DNA of 64,000 nt, from contig RXJJ01000009.1 in assembly GCA_003963145.1 (NCBI GenBank), forward strand, positions 25,733 to 89,732, given 5' to 3'. Source of the stretch: Bradyrhizobiaceae bacterium. GTDB lineage: Bacteria; Pseudomonadota; Alphaproteobacteria; Rhizobiales; Xanthobacteraceae. Below the pieces are notes generated by a model. The model made no database searches. It was not told the DNA's origin and saw only the letters and a list, made by a program, of their open reading frames with translations. Of the stretch, positions 5,920 through 16,854 are shown piece by piece (positions within the stretch are counted from its first letter, which is position 1; each line of letters starts with the position of its first letter). Both the position numbers and the translations under genes were made by a program.

Positions 5920-6093
5920 GAATTCTGCAGACCCGGCCACCCGCCGATGCCGCCTATTTAGCCGAAAATGAGTTTCCGACCAACCGGATAGGCATACATT
6001 TCGCCTGCATTAAGGCCGGACATCGTGCCGGAAAACAGACTTTCCAGCTCATTATGCCCTGAAATATTTGAACCGGGAGTGTCGGAAAGAGGC

Positions 6094-7056
6094 TCAGGAG
6101 ACGTCCGGAGCAAAGGCCGGGGCCACGATACCGCCCGCAAGCAGACCGCCAACAGCGTCCGCGGTCACGCGCGGACGGCGCGCCGGCTCGGCTTCGACCA
6201 CCCGCCAGGCATGGCGATCGGCCAAAAGCGAGGTCAGAACGGCATGGTTGAGCTTGTGGCCGCCACGCACCGAACGGTACAGGCCAAGCAGCGGCAAACC
6301 GGCCAATGCAAGATCGCCGACGACGTCGAGCACCTTGTGGCGGACGCATTCGTCGGCGTAGCGCAGGCCTTCGGTATTGAGCAGACGATCCTCGTCGAAC
6401 ACCACCGAATTCTCGAACGAGGCACCGCGGGCGTAACCAGCGCTCCACAGTGCGGCGACATCCTTCATGCAGCCGAACGTGCGGGCACGGCAGACATCGC
6501 GGCGGAAGGTCTCGGGGGTCATGTCGAGATGCATGGCCTGACGGCCGATCAGCGGATTGCTGAAATTGATTTCGATTTCGGCACGGAAACCGCCGGCATA
6601 GGGCCGCAGTTCGCCGAAGGATTCGCCAATGGCGACCTGAATGGGCTTGAGAACCTCGATGAAACGGCGGGCGGCAGATTGCTGAACAATTCCGACTTCA
6701 TCGATCGCGGCAACGAAAGGCGCCGCGCTGCCGTCCATGATCGGAACTTCAGGACCATCAACCTCGACGGTGGCGTTATCGACGCCCATCCCGCGCAGAG
6801 CGGCGAGAACGTGTTCGGCAGTGGAAACCAGCGGACCGGTGTGGTCACCCAGCACGGTGGCGAGTTCGGTCGCAGTGACGGCGGAGGCGACGGCTTTGAC
6901 TTCGCGGTCGGCACCTTCAAGTCCGGTGCGGACGAAAACATAACCATCGTTGATTTTTGCAGGACAGAGAGTGAGATGAACTGGAGCACCGGAGTGGACC
7001 CCAACGCCCGTCAAGGTGACAGACGACCGAAGCGTTGTTTGCCGGCTGAATTTCAT
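6094..7056 (-). CDS. lpxC: UDP-3-O-acyl-N-acetylglucosamine deacetylase LpxC
   Basis: Zinc deacetylase that catalyses the committed step of lipid A synthesis in the cytoplasm. The family motifs are present: STAEHVLAAL carrying the first zinc histidine, RHKVLDVVGDLAL carrying the HxxxD zinc ligands, and GHKLNHAVL carrying the catalytic histidine. I start at the ATG at 7056 (MKFSRQTTL), giving 320 residues; the track's longer version begins at a TTG with no alignment value. It follows ftsZ, as in many proteobacteria, but is separated from it by about 350 bases that include a terminator hairpin, so it probably has its own promoter. Confidence 0.96.
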   Translation of the reverse strand: MKFSRQTTLRSSVTLTGVGVHSGAPVHLTLCPAKINDGYVFVRTGLEGADREVKAVASAVTATELATVLGDHTGPLVSTAEHVLAALRGMGVDNATVEVDGPEVPIMDGSAAPFVAAIDEVGIVQQSAARRFIEVLKPIQVAIGESFGELRPYAGGFRAEIEINFSNPLIGRQAMHLDMTPETFRRDVCRARTFGCMKDVAALWSAGYARGASFENSVVFDEDRLLNTEGLRYADECVRHKVLDVVGDLALAGLPLLGLYRSVRGGHKLNHAVLTSLLADRHAWRVVEAEPARRPRVTADAVGGLLAGGIVAPAFAPDVS

Positions 7057-7071
7057 CCCAACTTCGCCCAA

Positions 7072-7341
7072 TTTCTACACGACCTCGGAACCTTCGGCTT
7101 TCGCCGCACGACCGTTTTCCGGCCCTTCTGATTCCTTGTCGTCCCCAATGTGGAGGGACCTTGGCCCATTGCCGCTTCAGGCGCCACTCACGCTTGTTTA
7201 CGGATTGTTACCCCAAACCCGCCGCATTCCTCCATGCTGGCGCCATAATCCGGCAGCGAAATCCGTCGACATTTCCCGTATTACGCACGATAAATCAATA
7301 ACTTAATTGAGTTTCGGTCGCCGGATTGGGTGCAAAGCAAA
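7072..7341. other. Gene-free stretch upstream of lpxC
   Basis: This is most of the roughly 350-base gap between the end of ftsZ and the start of lpxC. It holds no convincing reading frame and should contain the lpxC promoter on the minus strand. It includes an A/T-rich segment around 7285-7312 (ATAAATCAATAACTTAATT) that would be a natural promoter region, but I see no clean -35/-10 pair. A weak TTTA-N7-TTAC pattern near 7197-7211 recalls a CtrA site but is too degenerate to call. Confidence 0.5.
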
Positions 7342-7405: not shown

Positions 7406-9160
7406 TTAGCTCGATTGCCGCCGCAGGAAAGCGGGGATGTCCAGATGATCGTCCGAGGGGGCTGCTGGGGCGACCGGCGCCGGACGTCCATGCGAATCAA
7501 GGCCCTGAGGCGCCGGACGGCGGCCATATTCAGATACCGGCTCACCACCGTATTCTGGCGGGATCGGACGCGGAGGCTTACGGGTCTGCAGTGGCGGCAT
7601 CTGCGGCATGGCGGGAGCAGAGGCGCGGGCGGCAATCGGCGGCTCATTGTCCTCATCGCGGCGGCCAAGGCCAACATTGGCCAGGCGCTGCAAGAGCGAG
7701 GTGCGGGTCTTTTGCGGATGCTCTTCCGGCATCTCGCCGCGGGCGCGGCGGATCTCGTTCTGGGCCGGTACCGGCAATTCCTCGAACGCAGGCATCCGCG
7801 GCGCGCGATGCGGCATCCGCTCGGCGGACGGCGGAATGAAAGCGGTCGGCGGAGCGGGCTCGTTCAGCTCCATGGGCTCATCGTGATCCGGGAACAAGGA
7901 CGGCTTCGGCGGGATCGGGCGAATGCTGACATCGCCATAGGCCGCCGGCTGGGCCGGAGCGTGCGGCGCACGGGCGGGAAAAGTCGGAGACACGGCTTCG
8001 GCGATCGCGGCGAGCGCAGCGCGGTCGATCTGATCGGCGCGCGCCGGAGCGGGTTGGGCTGGACGCGCGGCCTCCTTTTGCTGCGCGGCAATGCGATGGT
8101 TGTCGGCGCGCAGGCGCGCGGTGAGTTCGGCCAGACGGCTTTCCGGGGCACCGGACGAAGCCGTCGCCTGCGGGGCCGGCATGGCGACACGCGCAGTCTG
8201 GTCAATGCCGGTCGCGACGACGGACACCCGGATAATGCCGTCAAGGGATTCGTCGAAGGTCGCGCCGACAATGATGTTGGCGTCGTTATCGACCTCCTCG
8301 CGAATGCGGGTAGCCGCTTCGTCGACCTCGAACAGAGTCAGGTCCTTGCCACCGGTAATCGACACCAGCAGACCCTTCGCACCCCGCATCGAGGAATCGT
8401 CGATCAGGGGATTGGCGATCGCGGCCTCGGCGGCGGTCAGCGCCCGCTTCTCACCGGTCGATTCGCCGGTGCCCATCATTGCCTTGCCCATCTCCTTCAT
8501 CACCGCGCGGACGTCGGCGAAGTCGAGATTGATCAGGCCTTCCTTGACCATCAGATCGGTGATGCAGGCGACGCCCGAATAGAGCACCTGATCGGCCATC
8601 GCAAAGGCGTCGGCGAAGGTGGTCTTTTCGTTGGCGACACGGAACAGGTTCTGGTTCGGAATGATCAGCAGCGTGTCGACCACCTTCTGGAGTTCGGCAA
8701 TGCCGATCTCGGCGGTACGCATGCGGCGCTGACCCTCGAAGTGGAACGGCTTGGTAACGACGCCGACGGTGAGGATGCCCATCTCTCGCGCGGTCGCGGC
8801 GATCACGGGAGCCGCACCGGTGCCAGTGCCGCCACCCATGCCGGCGGTAACGAACACCATGTTCGCGCCGGTCAGATGATCGCGAATCTCGTCGATGACT
8901 TCCTGCGCCGCGGCCGCGCCGATATCCGGCTGCGATCCCGCGCCAAGACCCTGCGTCACGACGGTGCCCATCTGCACGAGACGTTCGGCCTTGGACATCG
9001 TCAGGGCCTGCGCGTCCGTGTTGGCGACAACGAAATCGACCCCCTGAAGGCCCGCCGTGATCATGTTGTTGACGGCATTGCCACCGGCGCCGCCGACGCC
9101 AAACACGGTGATGCGCGGCTTCAGCTCGCTGATTTCGGGCTTCTGAAGATCAAGTGTCAT
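7406..9160 (-). CDS. ftsZ: Cell division GTPase FtsZ with long C-terminal linker
   Basis: Tubulin-like GTPase that forms the Z-ring at midcell. The globular domain covers about residues 1-330, with the tubulin signature GGGTGTG at 109-115 and the N-terminal [13 protein letters not shown] loop. After it comes an unusually long linker of about 240 residues rich in Pro, Ala and Arg, ending in the short conserved tail DIPAFLRRQ that binds FtsA and other partners. The 584-residue length is well above the roughly 380 of E. coli but is expected in alphaproteobacteria related to Bradyrhizobium. It lies 87 bases after ftsA and is followed by a strong terminator. Confidence 0.98.
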
Positions 9161-9247
9161 GTTTGCCTCTCGATTACGCGCGCGCGTTGATGATTCGACG
9201 ATACGCCGAAGAAGTTGAAGAATTTGATAAGGTTAATGGACCGGCCA

Positions 9248-10573
9248 TCAGAACCCCTCGCGAAGCCATCGCCCGACCTTTCCGATGTAACCGCCGTCTG
9301 TCCCTGTCATGAGCGGCCGCTTATGACGCGGCTCGACATGTTCGAGTTGAGCGAATTGCGGATAGACCAGAAGTCCCGCGGGAACCGCGAAGGACGCGCT
9401 TTTCGCTTCATTAGGCAGGCGGCTGAAGCCGAGCGGGCGGCCGACGCGAACGTCGCGGCCCAGGATGCGGCTGGCCAGTTCGGGAACTCCGGTCAGTTGC
9501 GAGGCGCCGCCGCTGAGGACGACCCGGGCACGCGGCTCTGCCGCAAAGGGGGACTCCACGAGGCGGTCCCTGACCATTTCAAAAATCTCCTCAACCCGCT
9601 GCCGGACGATGTTCGAAATCGTGGCACGGGAGAAAATATGCGGCGCATCACGCTCGTGACCGGCCGCCGCCTTCACGCTGACCATCTCGCGCGCATCGGA
9701 GCCGCCCGTCAGCACCGTGCCATATAAAGTCTTGATTCGCTCGGCATCCGCAATGGACGCGCCGATGCCACGTGCAAGATCCATCGTGACGTGTTGCCCA
9801 CCGAGCGCAAATCCGCTGGCATGGACGAAATGACCGCCGGAATAGACCGCGATCGTGGTTGTGCCCGCCCCCATCTCGACGACAGCCGCGCCGAGATCGG
9901 CCTCATCGTCGGTCAATAGCGAAAGACCCGCGAGATAGGGGCTTGCAGCCATGGCCTCGACGTTCAGATGACAGCGTTCCACCACCAGCATCAAGTTTTT
10001 TGCTGCAGGTGCGTCGGCGGTGACGACGTTCATGTCAACGCCGAACTGGTGCGCCACCATGCCGCGCGGATCGCGCACGCCCTTCACGCCGTCCAGCGCG
10101 TAACTCACGGGCAGCGCATGCAGAATGGTGCGGCCTTCGGCGGTCGCGTGGCGCATGCCCGCGCCAATCACGCGGTCGATATCGGATTGCGCGACCGCGC
10201 CATTGCGGGTTTCGGCAGAGGCTTCGATCAGCTGGCCGCTCAGCCGGCCGGCCGAGACCGACAGCAGAACCGACTCGACCCGTACCTTGGCCATGCGCTC
10301 GGCCAGCGCCACCGCGTGGCGCACCGAGTGCTCACATTCGTTCAGATCGCTTACCGCGCCGGCCTTGACCCCACGCGAGCGCACATGGCTCATGCCGATC
10401 AGTTCGACCGAATGGGTTCGGCCGCGCAGCATCTCGCTTGAGGGACAGGGCTTCAACCGCGCGATCAGGCACGCAATCTTGCTGGTGCCAATGTCGAGTG
10501 CGGCCACCAGCGCCGTCTTGTTCGGCGGCATCTGGCGCGTCTTCGGTGTCTGGCGGCCATTGAGCATGGTCAT
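9248..10573 (-). CDS. ftsA: Cell division protein FtsA
   Basis: Actin-like ATPase that tethers FtsZ to the membrane and recruits later division proteins. The protein (441 residues) has the phosphate-1 motif ALDIGTSKIACLIA near residue 25, an inserted 1C (SHS2) domain, the phosphate-2 and adenosine segments, for example AAVVEMGAGTTTIAVY and VVLSGGASQLTG, and a C-terminal amphipathic helix ending VGRWLREGF, the usual membrane anchor. The ATG overlaps the ftsQ stop by four bases (ATGA), so the pair is translationally coupled. A second in-frame ATG two codons on is also possible. Confidence 0.96.
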   Translation of the reverse strand: MTMLNGRQTPKTRQMPPNKTALVAALDIGTSKIACLIARLKPCPSSEMLRGRTHSVELIGMSHVRSRGVKAGAVSDLNECEHSVRHAVALAERMAKVRVESVLLSVSAGRLSGQLIEASAETRNGAVAQSDIDRVIGAGMRHATAEGRTILHALPVSYALDGVKGVRDPRGMVAHQFGVDMNVVTADAPAAKNLMLVVERCHLNVEAMAASPYLAGLSLLTDDEADLGAAVVEMGAGTTTIAVYSGGHFVHASGFALGGQHVTMDLARGIGASIADAERIKTLYGTVLTGGSDAREMVSVKAAAGHERDAPHIFSRATISNIVRQRVEEIFEMVRDRLVESPFAAEPRARVVLSGGASQLTGVPELASRILGRDVRVGRPLGFSRLPNEAKSASFAVPAGLLVYPQFAQLEHVEPRHKRPLMTGTDGGYIGKVGRWLREGF

Positions 10574-11574
10574 GCGTCACCTGCCTTGCGTTTCGGCTTG
10601 GCGGCGTTGATGGCGTCCATGCGCGCCTTTGCGGCGTCCTCCGACAGGCGGACCGTCAAACGGTCCGGCAGGCGCATGTCGATCGCGGTGATGTCGCGCG
10701 AGAATAATTGTTCTTCGCTGTCGAGCCTGGACAGCGTCGCCAGCGCTTTATCGACGCCGTTTTCCGGCAGGCGCACGTCAAGGCCGTTGGCGAGACGCAA
10801 ATTCCAGCGCCGCTCGCCGACAAATACGATGGCCTTCACGCTCGATGAAATCTGCGGATATTGCGCGATCAGATCGAGAAAATCGCGGGCCCGGGTTTCA
10901 GCGCCCTTGCCGACGACCAGCGGCAGGTTCACGAAGCGCCGCGCCACATAAGGCTCCAGCACCGTGCCATCCTCGGAGATCACCGACAATTTGCCGTCCT
11001 GCTGCCACAACGCAAACGGCGCGCGCTCGGTAATCTCGATCTGCAAACGGCCGGGATAAAGTTTCTGAACGGTGGCTTCGCGGATCCAGGGATCGGCTTG
11101 CAGCCGCTCGCGCATGGTTGCAGCGTCGAGAAACAGCAGCGAGGAGCGGCCATTGACGCCGCCGACAGCAAGAATTTCGTCCTGGGTGAGCTGCTTGCGG
11201 CCGGTGATGGCGACGGAGGTGATGCGGAACCCGGCGGCATTGGCCATCGCGTTGCGGGTATCGCTCAGGGCGCCGGTGACGTCATCGGCATAACCGCCCT
11301 TCATCACGCCCAGCACGCCAGCGCAGAACAACAGCGCAAAGGTCGCGCCGGTGCCGACACCGCGCGGCAGCCATCGCTCGAGTGTGGCGATCAAGCCGTT
11401 ACGGTGCTGGTCGTTGAAATCGCGAGCCGTAAAAGCCGGTTCGGGAAGCAAGGTCGGCTTCAGATCGGAGACACGCGCCTTCGATGCCCTGGAAGCGGCC
11501 CTCTTCGTCTTCGCCGGATCGGACCGTCGCTGCGGCTGTTTTACCGGCCGAGAGAGGCGTCCTCCACCATCCAT
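10570..11574 (-). CDS. ftsQ: Cell division protein FtsQ
   Basis: Bitopic inner-membrane protein that links the early and late divisome through the FtsQLB subcomplex. The 334-residue product has a basic cytoplasmic tail of about 80 residues, one membrane helix (GATFALLFCAGVLGVMKGG), a POTRA domain beginning FRITSVAITGRKQLT and a beta domain to the end. The ATG lies inside the end of ddl, overlapping it by 34 bases, and the stop overlaps ftsA by four, so ddl-ftsQ-ftsA reads as one coupled unit. Confidence 0.94.
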   Translation of the reverse strand: MDGGGRLSRPVKQPQRRSDPAKTKRAASRASKARVSDLKPTLLPEPAFTARDFNDQHRNGLIATLERWLPRGVGTGATFALLFCAGVLGVMKGGYADDVTGALSDTRNAMANAAGFRITSVAITGRKQLTQDEILAVGGVNGRSSLLFLDAATMRERLQADPWIREATVQKLYPGRLQIEITERAPFALWQQDGKLSVISEDGTVLEPYVARRFVNLPLVVGKGAETRARDFLDLIAQYPQISSSVKAIVFVGERRWNLRLANGLDVRLPENGVDKALATLSRLDSEEQLFSRDITAIDMRLPDRLTVRLSEDAAKARMDAINAAKPKRKAGDA

Positions 11575-12464
11575 TGCACCAACTCGTCAAATGTTACGCC
11601 CGCATACGCTGCAAGCTCTGGAACAAGTGACGTCTCGGTCATGCCGGGCTGGGTATTGACTTCGAGGCAGATCAATCCCCCCGTCCCCTCGATGCGGTCG
11701 TCGTAACGGAAATCCGCACGGCTCACGCCCCGGCAGCCAAGCGCCAGATGCGCCGCCAAGGTGAACCTTCGGACTTCCTGGTAAACAAAAGGTAAAATCG
11801 GCGCGGGCAGGATGTGTTTTGATGCGCCTTTTGAATACTTTGCCTCGTAATCATAAAATTTTACGAGAGGCACGATCTCGATTACGTCGCTCGCCTCGCC
11901 CTTGATGACCGCACAGGTCAGTTCCTTGCCAGCGACGTATTTTTCGACCAGGAGCTGGTCGCCATGAGGCCAGTCGTCGCGGAACAGCTCCTGCGGGGGA
12001 TGGGCATGCTCTTCGGTCACGATGAACACCCCGACGCTCGAGCCATCCGCCACTGGCTTGATGACGTAAGGCGGCTTCATCGCATGGCCCTTGGCCACCT
12101 CCGCGCGCGACAGGGTGAGACCTTCGGCAACTGGAACGCCCGCCGTGGCCAGCACGGTTTTGGCGAGATCCTTCTGCATGGCCAGTGAGGATGCGAGCAC
12201 ACCGGAATGGGAATAGGGAATCGCCAGTGTCTCGAGCACGCCCTGAATCGTCCCGTCCTCGCCCGGCCGTCCGTGCAGCATGACCAGCGCCACGTCCGGC
12301 CGGAGTTGATCGAGCACGGTGGCGATGTCGCGTTTCACGTCGATGCGGGTCACGCGATAGCCTTTGCGCTCGAGGGCCCCGGCACATGCCTCGCCCGACC
12401 GCAGCGAAACCTCGCGTTCCGACGACCATCCACCCATCAGGACTGCAACGTGTTTTGCACTCAT
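11541..12464 (-). CDS. ddl: D-alanine--D-alanine ligase
   Basis: ATP-grasp enzyme that joins two D-alanines to make the dipeptide added by MurF. I use the ATG at 12464 (MSAKHVAVLMGGWSSERE), which follows a clear AGGAG site and gives 307 residues, the usual DdlB length; the longer ORF in the track has a non-homologous N-terminus. Motifs include the N-terminal GGWSSEREVSLRSG, the central ATP-grasp loop region around EKYVAGKELTCAV, and the Mg/ATP segment LEVNTQPGMTETS. It is divergent from the DUF4239 gene, 145 bases away, so it may have a promoter of its own in addition to read-through from murB. Confidence 0.96.
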   Translation of the reverse strand: MSAKHVAVLMGGWSSEREVSLRSGEACAGALERKGYRVTRIDVKRDIATVLDQLRPDVALVMLHGRPGEDGTIQGVLETLAIPYSHSGVLASSLAMQKDLAKTVLATAGVPVAEGLTLSRAEVAKGHAMKPPYVIKPVADGSSVGVFIVTEEHAHPPQELFRDDWPHGDQLLVEKYVAGKELTCAVIKGEASDVIEIVPLVKFYDYEAKYSKGASKHILPAPILPFVYQEVRRFTLAAHLALGCRGVSRADFRYDDRIEGTGGLICLEVNTQPGMTETSLVPELAAYAGVTFDELVQWMVEDASLGR

Positions 12465-12609
12465 GCTTGCTCCTTTGCGCGCCCTACCTACGCTGATTTG
12501 GCAGAGTGTCCAAGGGGACGACGGCACGCATTCCGGGCGCCAAAACAAAGACGCCGCAATAAAAATATGCCAAAACCCCGGCGGTCTCACGCTCGCGAAT
12601 GGAAACGCA

Positions 12610-13389
12610 ATGATCAGAGCCTGGCTCGATTTGTCGGCCCCCGGCATATTTGCCGTGCTTATCACGCTTTACTTTGGGATCGTGCTTCTGCTCACGCTTG
12701 TCGTATTCCACTCGCCCCTCAAAAGGCCGCTACAATCACTCAACGGCGTGGTCGCGCCGTTTTTCAGCTCGATTGCTATTCTGTTCGCGCTTCTGACCGG
12801 CTTTCTCGCCAACGACGTCAGCGACCGTAACCGCCAGGCCGTTCGCGCCGTTCAGACGGAGGCCGCCGAGTTGCACAATCTCTACACGCTCAGCGTCGCC
12901 TCTGTCTCCGACATGAGTGCCATCCGCGCCAAATGGGAGACCTACGTCAATTCTGTTGTAACGCGGGAATGGCCGGCGATGTCCGACAATCATCTCTCGC
13001 CGCAAACCTACACAGCGTATGACGATCTCCTGAAAGAGGTGAGCAATCCATCGATTGCCAAAAGCTCGGGCCAGGCGGTTCACGCGGCGCTTCTGAACAC
13101 TGGGGTTCGAATCGGCACCGCACGCAGCGACCGGCTCGCGCTGGCGTCGGACACCACGAACGATCTGAAATGGATCGTGGTGATCGTGCTCGGCGTTTTC
13201 ACCCAGATCGGAATTGCGCTGGTCCATCTCGATCGCCTGCGTGCTTTTATCGCGGCGCTCGTCGTGTTTTCCAGCGCGGCGATCGTGGCGCTTGGCTTCA
13301 TCGCAATGCAGGAATATCCGTTCTATGGCCCGCTGCAGATATCGGTTGCTCCGATTGCGGCCCAGATGTCGCTGGTGGAACAACAGTGA
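12610..13389 (+). CDS. DUF4239-family membrane protein inserted in the dcw cluster
   Basis: Unknown function. The protein (259 residues from the ATG at 12610, with GGAAA upstream) has two N-terminal membrane helices (about 10-32 and 47-67), a soluble helical middle of about 130 residues, and two C-terminal helices ending near MQEYPFYGPLQI. This layout and the final P-F-x-G motif fit the DUF4239 (bestrophin-like) family. It is the only plus-strand gene in the 26-kb division cluster. Its stop is 3 bases from the murB stop and its start faces ddl, so transcripts running from murB to ddl would be antisense to it. The longer track ORF starts inside ddl and is not supported. Confidence 0.78.
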   Translation: MIRAWLDLSAPGIFAVLITLYFGIVLLLTLVVFHSPLKRPLQSLNGVVAPFFSSIAILFALLTGFLANDVSDRNRQAVRAVQTEAAELHNLYTLSVASVSDMSAIRAKWETYVNSVVTREWPAMSDNHLSPQTYTAYDDLLKEVSNPSIAKSSGQAVHAALLNTGVRIGTARSDRLALASDTTNDLKWIVVIVLGVFTQIGIALVHLDRLRAFIAALVVFSSAAIVALGFIAMQEYPFYGPLQISVAPIAAQMSLVEQQ

Positions 13390-13392
13390 AAA

Positions 13393-14310
13393 TCAGGCGA
13401 CCCCGATCCGCTTGATTTCCCATTGCAGTTCGATGCCGGAATTTTCCTTCACGCGCGCACGCACGGTCTCACCAAGCGTTTCGATGTCATGACCCGTCGC
13501 ATCGCCCGTGTTGATAAGAAAGTTGCAGTGCATTTCAGAGACCTGCGCACCGCCAACTCGGAAGCCGCGCATTCCCGCAGCATCGATCAGTTTCCATGCG
13601 CTATGACCGGGCGGATTTTTGAACGTCGATCCGCCGGTCTTTTCGCGAATCGGCTGCGCCGTCTCGCGATGATTCTGCACCTCGACCATTCGCGCACGGA
13701 TTTTTTCAGGATCGGTGGTTTTTCCGCGAAACAGCGCCGAGGTAAACACGATCGACGGATCGACGCCGGAGTTGCGATAGACGAATTTCATCTCGGCGTT
13801 TGAAAATGTCACACGCTCGCCGCTGCGTGTCACGCCCGTCGCCTCGACCAGTACGTCCTTGGTCTCGCCGCCATTGGCGCCTGCATTCATGCGCAGCGCG
13901 CCACCGATCGAGCCGGGAATGCCGAAATAGAACTCCAGCCCGCCGATATTCGCCGCTGCAGCAGCTTCCGCGACGCGCTTGTCGAGCGCGGCCGTGCCCG
14001 CACGCACACTATCGCCATCCGCCTTGATTTCGCCGAAGCCGCGCGGCGACAGGCGAATGATCACGCCCTCGACACCGCCGTCGCGCACAATCAGATTGGA
14101 GCCGACGCCGACAGTATAAACCGCAACGTCGGCTGGCAGACGTTTTAGGAAATAAACCAAGTCATCTTCATCGGCGGGCGTGAACAGAATTTGCGCGACG
14201 CCGCCGACACGAAACCATGTCAAAGGCGCGAGCGGCTCGTTCGCGAGCAGGCGTCCGCGCAACTCAGGCATCGCGGATTTCAGATTGGCGCTGATGTCGG
14301 GAAAAGCCAC
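13393..14310 (-). CDS. murB: UDP-N-acetylenolpyruvoylglucosamine reductase MurB
   Basis: FAD enzyme that reduces UDP-GlcNAc-enolpyruvate to UDP-MurNAc with NADPH. Visible motifs are the FAD-binding [14 protein letters not shown] and [20 protein letters not shown], and the catalytic serine region [11 protein letters not shown] chose the GTG at 14310 ([10 protein letters not shown]), 5 bases after the murC stop with GGGATAA upstream, giving 305 residues; the track's ATG at 14385 would overlap murC by 70 bases. An ATG 13 codons further in is the other option. The gene is convergent with the DUF4239 gene. Confidence 0.94.
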
Positions 14311-14315
14311 GGCGT

Positions 14316-15719
14316 TTATCCCAAAGCCTTCAACTCGCCCGGCAAGGCGTAGGCCCATTGCGTGATATTGCCCGCGCCGAGGCACACGACAAAATCGTCA
14401 GGCTTGGCAACGCTTTTGATGAGCGGTGCGAGACTGGCGGCGCCGGGAAGCGGGATTACTTCGCGATGGCCGTGCGCGCGCAGGCCCAGCACGAAGGCAT
14501 CGCGGTCAACGCCGGGGATCGGTGCCTCGCCCGCTGCATAGACATCAGCGACGATCACGGCATCGGCGTCGTTGAAGCAGGTGCAGAATTCCTCGAACAA
14601 CGACTGCAGGCGGGTGTAGCGGTGCGGCTGCACCACGGCAATGACACGGCCTTTCGCGGTGTCGCGCGCGGCCTTGAGCACTGCGGCGATCTCCACCGGA
14701 TGATGACCGTAATCGTCGATAATGGTGACGCCGTTCCATTCGCCGGTCTTGGTGAAGCGGCGCTTAACGCCGCCGAAATCCGCGATGGCCTTGCGGATCG
14801 CATCGTCTGAAATGCCGATCTCGTGCGCCACCGCGATGGCAGCCGTGGCATTCAGCGCGTTGTGACGGCCCGGCATCGGCAGAACGAGATTCGCGATTTC
14901 GTGGGCGGCGCCGGTGCTGCGATTGCGGAATTCGACCTTGAATTTCGAACCTCCGGTGAACGGTTCAAGATCGGCGAGCCGCGCATCGGCCTGCGGGTTC
15001 TCGCCATAGGTGATGATTCGGCGATCCTCGATCTTGCCGACCAGCGCCTGCACCACCGGATGATCGGTGCACATCACCGCGAAGCCGTAAAACGGCACGC
15101 CTTCGACAAAACTGCGAAACGCGTCCTGCACCGCTTCGAAGGTCTTGAAATGATCGAGGTGCTCGGGATCGACATTGGTGACGATGGCGACGTCAGCCGG
15201 CAATTTCAGAAACGTGCCGTCGCTCTCGTCGGCTTCGACCACCATCCAGTCGCCCGCGCCGAGCCGCGCGTTGGTGCCATAGGCATTGATGATGCCGCCA
15301 TTGATGACGGTGGGATCGAGGTTGCCGGCATCGAGCAAAGTAGCCACCATCGACGTCGTCGTGGTCTTCCCGTGGGTACCGGCGATCGCAATGCAGCTTT
15401 TCAGCCGCATCAGTTCGGCGAGCATTTCGGCGCGGCGCACCACTGGAATGCGCAGGCCTCGTGCCGCGATCAGTTCCGGATTGTCGCGCTTGATCGCGGT
15501 CGACACCACAAGCACATCAGCGCCGGTGACGTTGTCCGCGCTGTGCCCGACAACGACCTTGATGCCCTTGTCGCGCAGGCGTGCGACGTTGGCATTTTCC
15601 GAAGCATCGGAGCCCTGCACCGTATAGCCGAGATTGCACAGCACTTCGGCGATGCCGCTCATGCCGATGCCGCCGATACCGACGAAGTGAATGGGGCCGA
15701 TTTCGCGCGGCAGTCTCAT
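14316..15719 (-). CDS. murC: UDP-N-acetylmuramate--L-alanine ligase MurC
   Basis: Cytoplasmic ATP-dependent ligase that adds the first amino acid, L-Ala, to UDP-MurNAc. The 467-residue protein shows the N-terminal UDP-binding loop [15 protein letters not shown], the ATP P-loop [11 protein letters not shown], and the C-terminal domain with [10 protein letters not shown] typical of MurC. A purine-rich AGAGAGA sequence lies before the ATG. It is followed closely by murB. Upstream, the usual neighbour murG is displaced by a secreted hydrolase gene, so murC probably needs a promoter in the 175-base gap ahead of it. Confidence 0.97.
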
Positions 15720-15894: not shown

Positions 15895-16677
15895 TCAGTA
15901 GAGCGCCTTGCGACCGGCCGCCTCAAGGATCAGGCTGGCGATTTCCCTGGGGTGAGACACCATGGCCAGGTGGCCGGCATCAACTTCAATGGTCTTGGCA
16001 TTCATGCGCTTGGCGAGAAAACGTTCCAGACCCGGATCAATCGTCTTGTCTTGCTTGGCCACTGCATAGAACGTCGGCTTGGTGTGCCACGCCGCAACCG
16101 TTGTCCGGTCAGCAAAGATCGAAGCTGCTGTATCGCCCTGCACCGCATAAAGCACCTTGGCCTGCTTTTCCGGTACGCCGTTGGCAAAATATTTCAGGAA
16201 CGCATCTTCCGACACGCGCGTGTAACCATCAAAATTCTGGACGCCGGCGCGAACCGGACCCGTTGGGAACTTTTTTGACAGCTCAACGAAATCCTCGTCG
16301 GCATCCGGTGCGCGCGCAGCGATATAGACCAGCGCGCTGATCTTGGGATCGCCACCGACCTGATTGACAACAGTCCCACTCCAGGAGTGTCCGACAAGCA
16401 CCGTCGGGCCGTCCTGCCGATCAATGACCCGCTGCGCCGCCTCGGCCGAATCCTTCAGCGAGCTGAGTGGATTTTGAACTGCCGTCACGTTGAGACCGGC
16501 TTTCTGCAAATAAGGGATAACTTCTGCCCAGCTCGAACCATCTGCCCATGCGCCATGCACAAGCACAACGTTCTTTGCCTGCACCGGCGTCGTTGTTTGT
16601 GCGTCGGCGCTGGCACCAGTGAAAATGGCTGCAAGCAACGTTGCTGTGGCAACCATAATCGTTCGATAGCTTTTCAT
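15895..16677 (-). CDS. Secreted alpha/beta hydrolase
   Basis: Predicted periplasmic serine hydrolase of unknown substrate. From the ATG at 16677, which has GAGGAC upstream, the protein is 260 residues with a signal peptide (cleavage near ASADAQ). The alpha/beta hydrolase features are the oxyanion region VLVHGAWADGSSW, the nucleophile elbow GHSWSG and the late histidine in DAGHLAMVSHP. It resembles the small esterases of the MhpC/methylesterase type. It sits between murG and murC on the same strand, with 177 and 175 bases on either side, so it looks like a separate unit inserted in the cluster, not a cell wall synthesis gene. Confidence 0.85.
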   Translation of the reverse strand: MKSYRTIMVATATLLAAIFTGASADAQTTTPVQAKNVVLVHGAWADGSSWAEVIPYLQKAGLNVTAVQNPLSSLKDSAEAAQRVIDRQDGPTVLVGHSWSGTVVNQVGGDPKISALVYIAARAPDADEDFVELSKKFPTGPVRAGVQNFDGYTRVSEDAFLKYFANGVPEKQAKVLYAVQGDTAASIFADRTTVAAWHTKPTFYAVAKQDKTIDPGLERFLAKRMNAKTIEVDAGHLAMVSHPREIASLILEAAGRKALY

Positions 16678-16854
16678 GATTAAATGTCCTCGGGTTTGGT
16701 GAGGCGATTGCCTCGTACAAACACAAGTTCGATTCACAACGCGCGCGCGTTACGCGCACGCAAATGAGGTACGATCACAACATTGTTCCCGGAAAAAGAG
16801 CCTCGAGCCGACTTGGCCGGGAATAGTCTGAAGTCATCCAAGGGCGATCCGGGA

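Follow-up and report, generated by a model that had tools for sequence, protein, structure and literature searches.

A reversed bestrophin-like membrane protein gene between murB and ddl in the dcw cluster of Afipia and relatives

Among bacteria, few gene orders are as well conserved as that of the dcw cluster. In the 64,000-nucleotide stretch of Bradyrhizobiaceae DNA analysed here (the window), its genes murD, ftsW, murG, murC, murB, ddl, ftsQ, ftsA, ftsZ and lpxC lie on the minus strand, and a membrane protein gene stands on the plus strand between murB and ddl. How did this conserved order come to be split by a reversed gene that has been kept in place across several genera, and what does the split mean for the genes downstream? 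Both the protein family and arrangements of this general kind are already known. Our literature search, which left out most subscription papers, returned no report of a reversed gene conserved within the dcw cluster in this bacterial family; DUF4239 came up in two papers, both unrelated. What is new is a near-invariant, genome-unique promoter-like element facing ddl in Afipia, the genus of the window, and in one sister genus. Natural relatives without the gene offer a built-in comparison for the effect of operon splitting on division-gene control, and the locus gives a testable function to a protein family so far described by its fold name only.

Arrangement of the reversed gene

The features under discussion are the following.

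12610..13389, plus strand: bestrophin-like (PF14023, formerly DUF4239) membrane protein gene, 259 aa (ORF, Pfam, KpBest-like model, orthologues)
11541..12464, minus strand: ddl (D-alanine--D-alanine ligase), heading ddl-ftsQ-ftsA-ftsZ (Pfam Dala_Dala_lig_C, 1.9e-39)
13393..14385, minus strand: murB, convergent with the bestrophin-like gene (Pfam MurB_C, 9.8e-36)
7406..11574, minus strand: ftsZ, ftsA and ftsQ, downstream of ddl (ORFs and syntenic homologues in relatives)
12465..12609, no strand: divergent intergenic region of 145 bp between ddl and the bestrophin-like gene (coordinates, alignment of relatives)
12485..12514, minus strand: promoter-like element facing ddl, CTTGG...CAAATCAGCGTAGGTA (candidate promoter; hardly varies across 27 gap-free loci)

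The initial annotation described the gene as the only one of opposite orientation over about 26 kb, and a GC3-weighted ORF map agrees: from 1190 to 29138 it is the sole convincing plus-strand gene among minus-strand genes. A plus-strand ORF at 6025-7131 was rejected as a gene on the same map, where it appears as an antisense shadow of lpxC. The ATG of the bestrophin-like gene at 12610 and the start of ddl at 12464 face each other across 145 bp; the frame is also open upstream of this ATG, and the start conserved in relatives reads MIRAW. At the other end 3 bp lie between its stop (13389) and the murB stop (13393). Both ends are thus as first described, and geometry and strand also uphold the statement that any read-through from murB to ddl would be antisense to the reversed gene.

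The convergent end is similarly tight in many relatives. The gap to murB measures 15 bp or less in about 26 of 57 loci, including five in which the stops overlap by 4 bp; this leaves no room for a terminator between the genes, and a 3' overlap of the murB and bestrophin-like transcripts is to be expected. A terminator scan at the region performed no better than on shuffled sequence. At some loci, 1-2.4 kb and further genes separate the bestrophin-like gene from murB. The long convergent gaps of six loci (L031, L040, L094, L098, L101, L126) contain palindromic repeat-like filler (GTCGTCCCCGCGAAGGCGGGGAC..., GTCATTCCGGG...CCCGGAATGAC). Elsewhere in the cluster, murC and murG are separated by an alpha/beta hydrolase gene (Abhydrolase_6; 15895-16737, minus strand), which has close homologues at the same place in genome G003 (L028) and beside murC in G006 (L168).

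Protein family and predicted fold

Assignment of the protein to the DUF4239 membrane proteins proved correct. The 259-aa sequence matches PF14023 ('Bestrophin-like') with E 6.2e-58 and 196.5 bits, compared with a gathering cut-off of 32, over model positions 2-231 of 232, and all 18 of the 18 aligned orthologues match the same family. Its hydropathy maxima are consistent with four membrane helices. An AlphaFold2 monomer model, computed with the 18 orthologues as input, is all-helical with a mean pLDDT of 88.7, and in it a single helix from residue 45 to 97 passes through and past the membrane. When this predicted structure was searched with Foldseek against solved structures, every one of the best 50 matches was a chain of the bacterial bestrophin channel KpBest (probability 1.00, best E 1.2e-3), with TM scores of 0.58-0.71 and 11-16% identity in the structural alignment.

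Homology to the canonical bestrophins (PF01062) at the level of sequence profiles was rejected as not significant. PF01062 gave zero matches to the bestrophin-like proteins at E up to 10, and the hhalign comparison of the profiles reached a probability of 0.3%; kinship with canonical bestrophins thus cannot be based on sequence comparison alone. A PF01062 profile search of 61 family genomes returned nothing above cut-off, with the positive control silent too, and a second genome search for PF01062 gave the same outcome, its control again silent, so that absence of canonical bestrophins from these genomes is unproven. Visual comparison suggests a likeness between the pore helix APFFSSIAILFALLTGFLANDVSDR and APFSILGVAIAIFLGFRNNAGYAR of E. 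coli YneE. The neck of KpBest consists of three hydrophobic residues spaced i, i+4, i+8, namely I62/I66/F70 (PMC8496536). In a manual alignment, for which the corresponding profile alignment is not significant, I57-L61-F65 of the window protein fall on these neck positions (V/I62-I66-F70 in KpBest/YneE) and GFxxN....R follows in both; L61 and F65 are invariant.

The protein thus resembles KpBest and YneE in predicted fold, length, number of membrane helices (four) and, in the manual alignment, pore-helix motif, and differs from them in belonging to PF14023 instead of PF01062, in showing no significant sequence match, and in that its oligomer and ion selectivity are hypothetical, a KpBest-type channel being by definition a pentamer that conducts ions through neck and aperture. 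We propose that it is a bestrophin-fold inner-membrane protein and probably a homo-oligomeric ion channel, with channel activity inferred. KpBest is described as a Na+ channel (PMC8496536), and we therefore claim no ion selectivity for the window protein. A bestrophin fold serving another purpose, for example as a membrane scaffold or sensor, would agree with the non-significant homology to PF01062 and with the 11-16% structural identity; the neck-like motif in the manual alignment speaks against it, and we regard it as a doubtful reading. The initial annotation had called the function of the family unknown. This can be narrowed, since the predicted fold is bestrophin-like.

Distribution and inheritance

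We surveyed 200 genomes of the family, each at least 90% complete, and defined a strong orthologue by E below 1e-60. Such an orthologue occurs in 69 of the 200. Besides Afipia, Tardiphaga and Rhodopseudomonas rhenobacensis are among the carriers of the gene. By the coordinates of murB and ddl and by individual loci, 65 of the 69 have it between murB and ddl, and its 3' end then always points at murB; three g64 genomes and one g48 genome carry it elsewhere. Within the genus of the window, 21 of 28 other genomes hold an open-frame orthologue, which together with low dN/dS in close pairs marks the ORF as a genuine gene. In Afipia genomes without it (G006, G009, G011; L167-L169), the stop of murB adjoins or overlaps the start of ddl; these clusters are otherwise conventional in gene set and order, and in the window a reversed gene and a divergent intergenic region of 145 bp come between the two. 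Homologues are present in other families of the order, none of them adjoining murB or ddl.

Presence and absence require 13 changes on a core-gene (murC+ftsA) tree of 90 genomes, whereas shuffled labels require 27 on average; patristic distances correlate at 0.76. On these grounds horizontal spread is not favoured as the main mode of inheritance. A single early gain on the murC+ftsA tree would require 17 losses. The gene tree broadly follows genera, but g61 is nested in Afipia (support 0.96), whereas the core-gene tree separates the two with support 1.0; at least one transfer is thus possible. In the 19 closest orthologue pairs (dS up to 0.46) dN/dS is 0.01-0.30; over all pairs with dS below 1.2 its median is 0.40, the more distant pairs giving higher values and being near synonymous saturation. 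The gene is under purifying selection and yet has been lost many times, and its repeated absence makes an essential role unlikely. A comparison of dcw gene orders, proposed with the first description as a check, shows a presence that is neither random nor without conservation.

The murB-ddl gap also receives other genes. It holds a GT87 glycosyltransferase in G033 and an FAD-binding-3 protein in G223 (Pfam; confirmed for L146 and L149), and further ORFs in it appear by eye to be glycosyltransferase-like or monooxygenase-like; the loci with other genes are L146, L149, L161, L159, L153, L109, L113, L139, L140, L110 and L112. The gap looks like an insertion hot spot. Since the genes found there are unrelated, a wall-specific role is not implied, and location alone says little about a role in division.

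Two departures from the usual arrangement were noted in passing. Genus g34 has two tandem bestrophin-like copies between ddl and murB (L123 3400-5149, L124 4292-5970; murB oriented minus), which share about 51% and 42% identity with the window protein. The orthologue of g64, about 50% identical, lies outside the dcw cluster (L128 6084-6866, minus strand; L129 5824-6606, minus strand; L130), next to genes of carotenoid/bacteriochlorophyll type: phytoene synthase, polyprenyl synthetase, amine-oxidase/CrtI-like, Mg-chelatase and LytB. Our literature search found nothing linking a bestrophin with a photosynthesis gene cluster, and this bestrophin-like gene may merit separate study.

The ddl-facing element and competing explanations

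The distance between ddl and the bestrophin-like gene is 113-177 bp in most loci. Aligned across Afipia and g61, this region diverges rapidly except for CTACGCTGATTTG...GACCAAG (plus strand). Read towards ddl, the element is CTTGG-N9-11-CAAATCAGCGTAG and stands 36-64 bp before the ddl ATG; a purine-rich, Shine-Dalgarno-like stretch usually lies between the two, and the leader is short. In the window it comprises a putative -35 (TTGGAC, 12513-12508), a 17-bp spacer and a putative -10 (TAGGTA, 12490-12485). This -10 is non-canonical and a poor sigma-70 match; a sigma-70 consensus scan, itself no better than on shuffled sequence, reported no promoter at the element, and an Rfam search of the region reported no RNA element. 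The 13-mer of the element has one exact copy in the window genome, which led us to reject it as a regulon motif, and is absent as an exact match from Afipia G011, a non-carrier of the gene.

With one mismatch allowed and within 330 bp upstream of ddl, the 10-base core was found in every Afipia and g61 carrier examined and in some carriers of g49, g56 and g52, and in 0 of 32 loci without the bestrophin-like gene, carriers and non-carriers not being phylogenetically independent. In the Afipia non-carriers G006, G009 and G011, the murB-ddl junction has no room for it. At the majority of Tardiphaga-, Rhodopseudomonas- and g34-type loci no core turned up, and the architecture therefore varies. In Afipia G016 (L029) the element is still present although ddl there is a different gene, 33% identical; it is thus tied to the place and not to the ddl coding sequence. 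Most simply read, the element would be a ddl promoter that arrived with the split or arose there. By eye, L035 shows TGACC, 16 bp and GATAAT readable towards the reversed gene; in some Afipia loci GACCAAG could double as a -35 for that gene, giving overlapping promoters, which we offer as a lead only.

The position of the element 36-64 bp before ddl, together with the absence of its core from the 32 non-carrier loci, indicates that one operon probably became two units through the insertion. We propose that the gene arrived, in reverse orientation, at the ancestral murB-ddl junction at an early stage of the Xanthobacteraceae/Bradyrhizobiaceae radiation; its descent since then would have been mainly vertical, with losses on repeated occasions. 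Its arrival would have divided an ancestral murC-murB-ddl-ftsQ-ftsA-ftsZ run into two transcription units, of which ddl-ftsQ-ftsA-ftsZ would start, at least in Afipia and the sister genus, at its own promoter in the region of about 145 bp. A promoter of the reversed gene in the same region would let the two units compete or be co-regulated; promoter function and co-regulation are both inferred. This view, in which the operon was split and the two units share a divergent control region, has the best support, and for the whole chain, bestrophin-fold identity included, we hold it to be slightly on the probable side.

The serious rival is that the gene is a passenger in a permissive junction, its protein unrelated to wall synthesis and its position kept by vertical inheritance alone. 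The GT87 and FAD-binding-3 genes in the same gap, the orthologues elsewhere in g64 (in the photosynthesis-type cluster) and in the g48 genome, the homologues unlinked to murB or ddl in other families of the order, and some 13-17 gains or losses all suit such a passenger. Other gap genes are sporadic, however, whereas this one keeps its site in nearly all carriers, and in Afipia and g61 the conserved element accompanies it; we judge the passenger reading the less probable, at about the level of a fold without channel function. A shared promoter region would fit it as well, and it coincides in part with the operon split that we favour.

Rather less likely, in our estimate, is a noncontiguous operon or excludon, in which murC-murB and ddl-ftsQ-ftsA-ftsZ would be co-transcribed across the reversed gene with mutual repression by polymerase collision and RNase III, so that expression of the membrane protein tunes the wall and division genes. 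In S. aureus, the noncontiguous operon menE-menC-MW1733-ytkD-MW1731 (PMC7154746) likewise has a single reversed gene within a run of co-directional, functionally related genes, and the 3' transcript overlap expected from the short convergent gaps would fit. Here, however, the downstream genes have a promoter-like element of their own in front of them, which suggests that ddl-ftsQ-ftsA-ftsZ may be independent of read-through; the loci with extra genes and 1-2.4 kb before murB also argue against it. Coupling, if any, would more likely run through the shared region than through the murB-to-ddl antisense read-through by which the initial annotation held that the genes may interfere.

An extension of the operon split, which we consider the least likely of the ideas raised here, is that the putative ion-channel gene and ddl-ftsQ-ftsA-ftsZ might fire from back-to-back promoters at one conserved site in Afipia and relatives, as a mutually exclusive switch between ion permeability and late wall-precursor and division proteins, and that loss of the gene might restore direct murB-ddl coupling. 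What has long been kept is the position and direction of the gene and, in Afipia, the adjoining control DNA; the gene can be lost, and its link to division is putative.

Regarding ddl itself, the native gene beside ftsQ has been replaced in many relatives (L044-L049, L098-L108, L110-L116, L132-L147, L029, L062/L086). At these loci a divergent ddl lies upstream, with an identity of about 30-35% to the window Ddl. Many of them still have part of the native ddl next to ftsQ, a decayed 3' piece covering about residues 200-307, and there the ftsQ start overlaps the ddl end.
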